A stretch of DNA of 64,000 bases from Micromonospora sp. WMMD1120 (GTDB lineage Bacteria > Actinomycetota > Actinomycetes > Mycobacteriales > Micromonosporaceae). The stretch lies in NCBI RefSeq assembly GCF_029626235.1, contig NZ_JARUBO010000005.1, positions 310,001 to 374,000 on the forward strand. Direction: 5' to 3'. This document shows, in pieces, positions 10,030 to 58,397 of the stretch. The position numbers and the translations under genes are program-made. Position 1 is the first letter of the stretch, and the number at the start of each line of letters is the position of its first letter. The notes under the pieces are model-generated. The model saw nothing but the letters and a program-made list of their open reading frames with translations, was not told the origin of the DNA and did no database searches.

Positions 10030-11316
10030 CTACGGCGTCAGCCGGTGCAGGTCGCGCGGGAACGCGGTGACCTCCCGGATGTTGGTCGCGCCGACCAGCC
10101 GGGCCACGAACCGTTCCAGGCCGATGGCGAAGCCGCCGTGCGGCGGCATGCCGTGCCGGAACGCGTCCAGGTAACCGGCGTACGGCTCGGGCGACTCGCC
10201 CCGGGCCGCCAACGCCGCCAGGTAGTCGGCGTGCCGGTGCAGCCGCTGCCCGCCGGTGACCAGCTCCAGACCACGAAAGAGCAGGTCAAACCCGTTCGAG
10301 TACGCGGGCCGCGCCGGGTCCGGGTGGGTGTAGAACGGGCGTTTCGCCATCGGGTAGCCGGTGACGAAGACGAAGTCCGAGCCGTGCTCGCGACGGGCCC
10401 ACTCGCCCAGCGCCCGTTCGTGGGCGGGCGCGAGGTCCGGCTCGTCGGCGGGCGCGCCGGCGATCGTCAGCGCCTCGGTGAAGTGCACCGCCGGAATCTC
10501 CGCCGGCACCGCCGGTGGCGTGACGCCGAGCGTGGCCAGTGCCCCGCCGGCCCGCTCGCCGACCGCGTCCAGCATTCCGGCCACCGTGTCGCGCAGCACC
10601 CGCATGACGTCCCGGTGGTCGGCGACGAAACCCACCTCCGCGTCGAGCGACGTGTACTGCGCGAGGTGACGGACGGTGTCGTGCGGCTCGGCCCGGAAGA
10701 CCGGCCCCACCTCGTAGACGCGTTCGAAGACACCGACCATCAACTGCTTGTAGAACTGCGGCGACTGGGCCAGGTACGCGGGCCGACCGAACCAGTCCAG
10801 GGCGAACACGTTCGCCCCGCTCTCGGTGCTGGAGCTGACCACCTTCGGGGTGTGCACCTCCACGAAGGCGAGCGCGTCGAGCGCGGCCCGGAAGCCGCCC
10901 ACCGCCGCCGCCGAGATCCGTAGCGCGGCCGACCGGGTGGGGTGTCGCAACGCGGCGGGCGCGTGGTCCAGCTGGGTGGGCAGGCTCGCGGTGAGCACCG
11001 GCCGGTACAGGTCGAACGGGGGCGGCACGGCGGGTGGCCCGAGTGGACGTACCGTCGGAGCGGTCAGCTCGACCCCGGCGGGCGCCGTGGTGTTCGGCGT
11101 GGCCGTGCCGACCACCTCGACGACCGTCTCCTCGGTCAGTTTCTCCAGCTCGGCGCGGACGGTCGGGTCGGTCACGACCACCTGGGCCAGGCCGGCGGCG
11201 TCGCGCACGATCAGGAAGGCCACCGACTTGAGCAGTCGGCGTCGGTGCACCCAGCCGGCGATGCGCACCGTCGAGCCGACGTGGTCGGCCAGGTGGTGGG
11301 ACAGGATTCGTTGCAT
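10030..11316 (-). CDS. aspS: Aspartyl-tRNA synthetase, archaeal type, probably non-discriminating
   Basis: 428 residues, the length of archaeal AspRS and much shorter than the roughly 590 of the usual bacterial enzyme. It charges tRNA with aspartate. An N-terminal OB-fold anticodon domain (VRIAGWVHRRRLLKSVAFLI) precedes a class II core with motif 2 (GPVFRAEPHDTVRHL) and motif 3 (GLERFVARLVGATNIREV), ending PRDLHRLTP as AspRS does. His24 and a proline near residue 79 appear to match the positions that mark non-discriminating AspRS, which also charge tRNA-Asn for the GatCAB amidation route. ATG 11316 follows GAGGAG. The frame stays open upstream, but that part is the T-box leader (it reads KVWWHRE) and is not protein. 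A main bacterial aspS presumably lies elsewhere. Confidence 0.93.
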   Translation of the reverse strand: MQRILSHHLADHVGSTVRIAGWVHRRRLLKSVAFLIVRDAAGLAQVVVTDPTVRAELEKLTEETVVEVVGTATPNTTAPAGVELTAPTVRPLGPPAVPPPFDLYRPVLTASLPTQLDHAPAALRHPTRSAALRISAAAVGGFRAALDALAFVEVHTPKVVSSSTESGANVFALDWFGRPAYLAQSPQFYKQLMVGVFERVYEVGPVFRAEPHDTVRHLAQYTSLDAEVGFVADHRDVMRVLRDTVAGMLDAVGERAGGALATLGVTPPAVPAEIPAVHFTEALTIAGAPADEPDLAPAHERALGEWARREHGSDFVFVTGYPMAKRPFYTHPDPARPAYSNGFDLLFRGLELVTGGQRLHRHADYLAALAARGESPEPYAGYLDAFRHGMPPHGGFAIGLERFVARLVGATNIREVTAFPRDLHRLTP

Positions 11317-11620
11317 GGCGGACTCCTCGGTCGATCGCCACGCCGTCGCCGCCCGGGGGAGGCGATGCGTCGCGTCAGCCCCAGGGAGGTGTGGGCGAGC
11401 GGGAACCTCGCGGTGCCACCACACCTTCGCCCCCGCCGGAGCGGGGACCTCGTTCGTCGCCTGATGACCGGGGCCAACCGGGCGGGATCTACTGGGCGTC
11501 TCCGCCGTTCTTCCCGCAGCTCGGGAGGGTCTTCGCACCCCGGCGCCAGACCGCCTCTCAGCACCGGCGGCTCTCTGCTCTGGCGGGGTTGGGGGCTACT
11601 CGGCTCCGTCGTCGCTGTTG
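11317..11620 (-). promoter_or_regulatory. T-box leader (tRNA-sensing riboswitch) of aspS, specifier GAC
   Basis: Read on the minus strand the leader has the stem I signature AGAGAGC...GGTGCTGAGAG around 11555-11576. GAA-GAC-CCTCCC-GAGC follows at 11522-11534, so GAC (Asp) at 11529-11531 stands in the specifier position. The antiterminator sequence GTGGTGGCACCGCG is within 11409-11427. AGGTGTGG (near 11426) can instead pair with CCACACCT (near 11390), a competing fold. No U-run follows, so control may be translational. A TAACGT -10 box at 11627-11632 places the RNA start near 11620. Uncharged tRNA-Asp should raise synthetase expression. Confidence 0.88.
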
Positions 11621-11758
11621 GCGGGGACGTTAACACGAGACGACCACGCGTGTGACGCCATTTTTCGACGGGCCGGTGTCCGGCGTCACAAGGTTTGCGG
11701 CGTGACGCCGGTCGCCCGACGCACATAGACGCCCGCCGTCCGGCGTAGGCTCGTTTTC

Positions 11759-12754
11759 GTGACGATCGAGCACTCCGCGCCGACGACCGGCCAGGCAGCG
11801 CGTACCGCAACGGCGGCCCCCGAGGGGCGGCGTCTGCTGCGGATCGAGGCGCGCAACGCCGAGACGCCGATCGAGCGCAAACCGCCGTGGATCAAGGTCA
11901 AGGCCAAGATGGGCCCGGAGTACACCCAGCTTCGCGGGCTCGTCACCCGGGAAGGGCTGCACACCGTCTGCCAGGAGGCCGGCTGCCCCAACATCTACGA
12001 GTGTTGGGAGGACCGCGAGGCGACCTTCCTCATCGGCGGTGACCAGTGCACCCGACGCTGTGACTTCTGCCAGATCGACACCGGCAAGCCGGCCGAGTTC
12101 GACGCCGACGAGCCGCGGCGCGTCGCCGAGTCGGTCGTCTCGATGGGGCTGCGCTACGCCACCATCACCGGCGTCGCCCGGGACGACCTGCCCGACGGCG
12201 GCGCCTGGCTGTACGCCGAGACCGTCCGCCAGATCCACGCGCTCCAGCCCGGCTGCGGCGTCGAGCTGCTGATCCCGGACTTCAACGCGGTTCCCGAGCA
12301 GTTGGCCGAGGTGTTCGGCTCCCGCCCGGAGGTGCTGGCCCACAACGTGGAGACGGTGCCGCGCATCTTCAAGCGGATCCGGCCGGCGTTCCGCTACGAG
12401 CGCTCCCTCGACGTGATCCGGCAGGCGCGCGCCGACGGCCTGGTCACCAAGAGCAACCTCATCCTGGGCATGGGCGAGGAACGGGCCGAGGTCTCGCAGG
12501 CGCTGCGCGACCTGCACGAGGCCGGCTGTGAGCTGATCACCATCACGCAGTACCTGCGCCCCTCGCCCCGGCACCACCCGGTGACCCGCTGGGTCAAGCC
12601 GGAGGAGTTCGTGGAGCTGCGCGAGGAGGCCGAGGAGATCGGCTTCGCCGGGGTGATGAGCGGGCCGCTGGTCCGCTCGTCGTACCGCGCCGGCCGGCTC
12701 TACCAGCAGGCCATCGACGCCCGCGCCGCCGCCTCGGTGGTCACCGCCGGCTGA
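11759..12754 (+). CDS. lipA: Lipoyl synthase LipA
   Basis: 331 residues. A radical SAM enzyme that inserts two sulphur atoms into protein-bound octanoyl chains. Both iron-sulphur clusters are visible: the auxiliary CX4CX5C (Cys71, Cys76, Cys82) and the radical SAM CX3CX2C (Cys97, Cys101, Cys104). The conserved [19 protein letters not shown] and QYLRPSP motifs and the C-terminal RSSYRA follow. GTG 11759 lies seven bases after TAGGCT (11746-11751), pointing to a leaderless transcript. It is divergent from the T-box leader of aspS. With lipB it completes endogenous lipoylation. Confidence 0.97.

Positions 12755-57967: not shown

Positions 57968-58397
<430 letters not shown>

Follow-up and report, generated by a model that had tools for sequence, protein, structure and literature searches.

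The leader RNA upstream of aspS2, a gene for a second, archaeal-type aspartyl-tRNA synthetase (AspRS) in Micromonospora sp. WMMD1120, can be read from its sequence as a T-box riboswitch sensing uncharged tRNA-Asp and switching this synthetase on, a reading to which we assign a probability of roughly 0.87. It is favoured because the leader has the elements of a T-box, a GAC specifier and a UGGC bulge that fits the tRNA-Asp discriminator base, and because it stands before aspS2, a placement conserved in relatives, in a genome that also holds a bacterial AspRS. Should the other enzyme, AspRS1, fail to keep tRNA-Asp charged, be it through aspartate shortage, enzyme failure or inhibition, uncharged tRNA-Asp would pair with both GAC and UGGC and hold the antisequestrator in place, and aspS2 would be expressed. 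The T-box is tied in this way to a spare archaeal-type AspRS, whose role may lie in stress or resistance.

The leader and the gene downstream

The window, the whole stretch of DNA that was analysed, comprises 64,000 nt of assembly GCF_029626235.1 (contig NZ_JARUBO010000005.1, positions 310,001-374,000, forward strand). A first-pass annotation had described a stem I signature, a GAC at the specifier position followed by six bases and GAGC, and a T-box sequence, all of which are located on the minus strand (Table 1; the GAGC is read from the sequence at 11522-11519, minus strand). Its identification of a T-box is supported by a match to the full RF00230 model (positions 1-219) and by conservation in related genomes, and that of GAC as the specifier by the cmscan alignment and, likewise, by conservation in relatives. 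The comparison with the Rfam T-box model that it had suggested gives a match that is clear by E-value, at 1e-11 for 561 bases (cmscan) and 3.0e-11 in the organism's own 7.15-Mb genome, where it is the sole RF00230 match at E ≤ 0.001, though the score lies below the gathering score; an Rfam scan at the gathering threshold lists nothing at the leader locus. Elsewhere in the window, 57972-58389 of the minus strand carries an ordinary class A RNase P RNA (271.8 bits).

Table 1. Features of the aspS2 leader and gene, in coordinates of the window
Feature	Position	Strand	Basis
TAACGT, possible -10 box	11627..11632	-	read from sequence
T-box leader RNA	11388..11621	-	RF00230 match, full model, 56.6 bits, under gathering score of 93
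Stem I, long, class I type	11524..11607	-	cmscan alignment
AGTA of stem I	11600-11597	-	read from sequence
AGAGAG of stem I	11576-11571	-	read from sequence
Specifier codon GAC (Asp), within GAAGACCCTCCCGAGC	11529..11531	-	sequence and cmscan alignment
Stem II motif AGTAGA	11488..11493	-	read from sequence
Stem III, GTCCCCGC-TCCG-GCGGGGGC	11429..11448	-	sequence and cmscan alignment
Antiterminator/antisequestrator	11388..11425	-	sequence and cmscan alignment
T-box sequence GTGGTGGCACCGCG	11422-11409	-	read from sequence
T-box bulge UGGC, complementary to tRNA-Asp discriminator G	11415..11418	-	sequence, relatives and tRNA-Asp genes
GC-rich stretch between antisequestrator and Shine-Dalgarno	11332..11376 (approximate)	-	comparison with relatives
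Shine-Dalgarno-like GAGGAG	11323..11328	-	read from sequence
aspS2, archaeal-type aspartyl-tRNA synthetase, 428 aa	10030..11316	-	profile and structure-relative matches

The leader thus has a specifier that fits the downstream gene, a UGGN bulge that fits the discriminator base, a stem III and an antisequestrator helix. The last can be formed by pairing GGTGTGG (11425-11419) with CCACACC (11394-11388) and GCGAG (11411-11407) with CTCGC (11399-11395), and its lower helix recurs when 22 short relatives are folded to a consensus. The GC-rich insert downstream is found in long-spacer Micromonospora leaders and not in short-spacer ones. At the other end, a TGTTAxxxT resembling a possible -10 box is seen by eye in some relatives, and a sigma-70 scan gave no promoter match for the candidate -10 box region of the window.

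The gene itself, with its likely start at the ATG at 11316-11314 (minus strand), had been taken at first pass for an archaeal-type AspRS gene, with which a match of its product to NF003483 (aspartate--tRNA(Asn) ligase) agrees, the score of 529 bits exceeding the cut-off of 353; the cut-off of TIGR00458 is not reached (340.8 against 368.4). The closest solved structure by sequence is Thermus AspRS2 (1n9w), which has H and P at the sites aligned with His24 and Pro79 of the aspS2 product, a combination that we take to fit the pattern of non-discriminating AspRS; the second of these sites is occupied by S in one relative (P0003). The bacterial AspRS encoded in the same genome matches NF001750 at 838 bits, and all 27 genomes checked that carry an aspS2-type gene have a second PF00152 ORF of at least 589 aa, scoring 366-401 bits and read as AspRS1. 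Most likely, AspRS2 is an inducible second AspRS.

Spread of aspS2 and the two forms of its leader

Genes of the aspS2 type are scattered, with the protein query matching in 82 of 397 genomes of the order at E ≤ 1e-60 and in 35 of 394 genomes of the class, 14 of the latter belonging to a group that is only 36-42% identical; at the level of families, 30 of 149 genomes in f41 match at E ≤ 1e-100 and 3 of 17 in f4. AspRS2 relatives also lie on plasmid records, 15 in all, and the one on the Macrococcus plasmid NZ_CP079956.1 (L257) might belong, as a resistant synthetase, to a small cluster of antibiotic genes.

RF00230 matches occur in 50 of 61 genomes, including that of the window, none of them at or above the gathering score. 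Thirty of these loci were fetched, 19 of which have aspS2 downstream and combine GAC with UGGC in every case (19/19). The other 11 provide an internal control: all nine that were parsed combine AUC with UGGU, and their downstream frames resemble IleRS by eye. In two of the loci without aspS2, L023 and L024, the AUC appears by eye to lie in a short hairpin loop, which in L024 reads CCGG-CCAUCA-CCGG. Among 80 named loci, GAAGAC is found ahead of aspS2 in 70 and the core GTGGNACC in 78.

A wider census took in 159 upstream regions, 155 of them distinct, the rows being related rather than independent, and a T-box was recognised in 139 of the 155 distinct aspS2-like regions, 112 with a long stem I and GAC and 27 without the long motif. 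The expectation that homologous leaders share one specifier held, none other than GAC or the UGAC form being seen among the 139 T-box leaders, of which 112 had been found with a search pattern that itself contains GAC and 27 were inspected separately. The long relatives keep AGAGA in 111 and AGTA in 110 of 112 cases, and the strict stem II motif AGTAG[AG] lies between specifier and core in 67 of them (69 with a looser pattern). At the variable base of the UGGN bulge, 127 of the 139 leaders have C and the other 12 have U, as against U in all nine parsed AUC leaders; the tRNA-Asp of all 24 genomes compared carries both a discriminator G and A37.

The 16 regions without a recognised T-box are L196-L203, L223, L077, L134, L211, L230, L194, L238 and L240. 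The synthetases of L196-L203 and L223 are about 35-39% identical to that of aspS2, and in L196-L203 (family f51, identity about 35-37%) no T-box core lies within roughly 420 bases upstream of the archaeal-type AspRS genes; in L134 the core is altered to GTGGCATC, L230 runs into a contig end, and the start of the gene in L194 was not located. A palindromic repeat of the GGAAGGGCCCC...TTAACA type replaces stem I in the Micromonospora leaders L103, L123 and L134 and the whole leader in L077, and sits between stem I and stem III in L118; the synthetases of these repeat-bearing loci match over 405-428 residues.

In several actinobacterial lineages, the aspS2 T-box seems, on balance, to have shrunk repeatedly to a minimal sensor, a UGAC hairpin of 3-6 bp followed by stem III and the antisequestrator, without the long stem I and nearly always without an AGUAGA stem II. 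The 27 T-box leaders without the long motif comprise 24 read as UGAC hairpins, counting L193 and L249 with their weak stems, and three that are neither form (L180, L103 and L123), L180 having AGAC in its hairpin loop and being excluded from the UGAC set for that reason. An alignment of 22 short leaders, from which L130 and L136 were omitted as near-copies of other Catellatospora leaders, has UGAC (columns 23-26) as the sole invariant run of its 5' half. RNAalifold pairs the columns flanking UGAC, with two-sided changes in 10, 2 and 1 sequences for three pairs, the middle one of which (19-31) is broken in 4 of the 22 leaders. In 20 of the 22, four or more Watson-Crick pairs close the loop that contains UGAC, against a mean of 0.95 and a maximum of 4 in shuffles. 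Since this set had been chosen by eye, the loop test was rerun with a strict script on all 27 leaders without the long motif, yielding 22 UGAC loops (shuffles: mean 0.91, maximum 4), and the same stretch gave 2 in the 112 long leaders that served as a control.

Pairing of the UGAC loop with tRNA-Asp would take in four anticodon-loop bases rather than three, namely the anticodon GUC and A37 (G34 U35 C36 A37). The standard search model overlooks this tiny stem I form: Rfam at E ≤ 1 reported no T-box in any of the 13 short-leader loci scanned, so minimal T-boxes with other specifiers may go undetected as well. A further UGAC leader, outside the census, lies on a Rhodococcus plasmid (L254) and has no Rfam match at E ≤ 0.01. 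In class II T-boxes, of which L024 offers a sequence example, the specifier stands in the terminal loop of an ultrashort stem I, and a stem II of the AGUAGA type is a defining part. The short aspS2 leaders have the specifier in the loop (24 of 27 as read, 22 of 27 by the strict script) and lack the AGUAGA stem II, the strict AGUAG[AG] being found in 0 of 22; a looser pattern matches L212 alone of the 24 UGAC leaders, and it also matches the three remaining leaders that lack the long motif (L103, L123 and L180).

A quick tree was built from 84 aspS2-like proteins (no bootstrap, root unsure); on it the short-leader label changes four times, and branches whose support is 95 or higher force three of these changes. 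The short form requires at least three state changes on this tree, be they gains or losses, and the Catellatospora group lies well apart from the one around family f41. Stem I may have been reduced separately, the long form may have been regained, or recombination may have exchanged leaders; the tree would fit each of these. The idea of repeated reduction is slightly weakened because the changes may be either gains or losses and because L212 retains a stem-II-like motif. The host's ileS leader is an unlikely source of the short aspS2 leaders in 8 of 13 short-leader genomes searched, in which no T-box core was found near an IleRS gene (G619, G871, G686, G545, G859, G679, G865 and G574; loci L292-L296, L298, L299 and L301), while such a core is present in G107, G131, G138, G242 and G792. 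An isoleucine codon (AUC) had also been considered for the Catellatospora leaders and was dropped; their UGAC aligns with that of the other short leaders, and their bulge is UGGC.

Output of the switch and competing interpretations

The first-pass annotation had noted the lack of a U-run and proposed either translational control or an unusual terminator. The lack is borne out by a consensus scan of 11250-11800, which gave no U-run or terminator-like site; as to the two outputs, short-spacer relatives argue for Shine-Dalgarno sequestration and the window itself supports neither over the other. Across 126 leaders, the duplex between the antisequestrator 3' arm and the downstream sequence averages -19.2 kcal/mol, against -14.3 kcal/mol in shuffles, and beats all 30 shuffles in 40 leaders where about 4 would be expected. 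Openness of the Shine-Dalgarno was then calculated for the 83 leaders that passed filters, 48 with a short spacer and 35 with a long one, the window's kind. In the short-spacer leaders it is 0.40 with the antisequestrator and 0.09 without, falling by more than 0.3 in 21 of the 48, showing no such fall in 27 and rising that much in none. This modelling supports Shine-Dalgarno sequestration, and with it translational control, for the short-spacer relatives, in which the off state would most likely consist of the antisequestrator 3' arm (ACCUCC or CACUCC) pairing with the Shine-Dalgarno. The antisequestrator fold is the more stable one in all 83 leaders, which counts against a default off state, though the calculation handicaps the other state by barring the 5' arm from all pairing.

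For the long-spacer leaders, the same folding gave a simple Shine-Dalgarno switch no support, openness being no lower without the antisequestrator (0.48) than with it (0.42), with a fall of more than 0.3 in 1 of the 35 and a rise of that size in 7. The arm's strongest duplex partner in the window is the GC-rich insert and not the Shine-Dalgarno, and in the window's clade this insert lies where short-spacer relatives would pair arm and Shine-Dalgarno. Transcription termination, with a long GC-rich hairpin of the 3' arm and the insert acting as a terminator without a U-run, is a doubtful but conceivable output here. When the 5' arm is removed from the window leader (L184) and from L068, UCGCC and CCUGGGG on the arm side pair with CCCC(C/A)GGG and GGCGA of the insert, an arm-to-insert duplex that is strong and would exclude the antisequestrator. 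Such termination sits poorly, however, with the empty scan, with the inserts of L073 and L079, which fold on themselves, and with the Shine-Dalgarno switch shown by insert-less relatives.

What the switch serves can be read in other ways. Were AspRS2 a non-discriminating enzyme that makes Asp-tRNA-Asn, the leader might sense tRNA-Asn in the service of asparagine supply, as a clostridial T-box reads Asn on such an operon; NF003483 is named for an aspartate--tRNA(Asn) ligase, the organism's own genome holds three PF00152 proteins with no AsnRS among them (one, L032, was judged by eye to be LysRS), and GatB is found there. Sensing of Asn was nonetheless rejected because AAC was not seen as a specifier in the T-box leaders, where it is GAC, and the UGAC loop fits the anticodon loop of tRNA-Asp, making this a very improbable reading. 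Equally improbable is a decaying relic without function, as the sub-gathering score, the variable spacer and the palindromic repeat that replaces stem I or the whole leader in some Micromonospora might suggest, given that specifier and bulge are retained in most relatives examined and that the short form has compensatory changes. With the leader read as a sensor of uncharged tRNA-Asp, a more specific role is a tentative but reasonable possibility: AspRS2 may confer resistance, as an enzyme that is induced once AspRS1 is blocked by an aspartyl-adenylate-type inhibitor. The second AspRS in every genome checked, the patchy distribution across the order, the plasmid-borne relatives and the position of the Macrococcus gene among a methyltransferase, an MFS transporter and a peptidase-like gene all point that way, but the neighbours of aspS2 in the window resemble, by eye, lipA and lipB.

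Relation to known T-boxes

The window leader shares with class I T-boxes (RF00230) the long stem I with AGTA and AGAGA, the specifier, the stem II motif, stem III and the UGGN bulge in an antiterminator-like helix, and differs from them in having no U-run terminator and in scoring below the gathering threshold. Within Actinobacteria, Seliverstov et al. (2005; PMC1262725) described T-boxes upstream of ileS, none of them classical, and proposed sequestration of the Shine-Dalgarno. The aspS2 leaders come from the same phylum and, in their short-spacer form, share this predicted sequestration, yet they combine GAC with UGGC where the ileS leaders have AUC with UGGU, and stem I of the window leader is long. 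The AUC leaders L023 and L024 carry the specifier in a hairpin loop, as do the short aspS2 leaders, and unlike these have the strict AGUAG[AG]. Actinobacterial T-boxes would thereby be extended from isoleucine to aspartate, a novelty that is provisional given the limited literature covered.

Wels et al. (2008; PMC2494555) found 32 T-boxes among 19 actinobacterial genomes, 12 of which had them, and reported that Clostridium acetobutylicum has a T-box on one of its three aspS genes, so that firmicute aspS T-boxes resemble the aspS2 arrangement in attaching to one of several copies. The aspS leader of a Paraclostridium plasmid reaches 119.5 bits with RF00230 and, unlike that of the window, is non-actinobacterial and AT-rich with U-run hairpins; at this locus (L256:4600-4825), where an AspRS2 gene has a firmicute T-box, two T-box-like cores and two U-run hairpins appear by eye to follow one another. 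For TBDB (PMC7778990), Actinobacteria were searched with a class II model, and the main text of that paper mentions neither aspS nor aspartate.

The occurrence of a long and a tiny stem I before one gene, with one codon, amounts to a natural experiment on which parts a T-box needs to read its tRNA. According to Suddala et al. (2018; PMC5951919), the stem I platform DTM is conserved among transcriptional and not among translational T-boxes, a rule from which those long aspS2 leaders that have a Shine-Dalgarno switch might depart.
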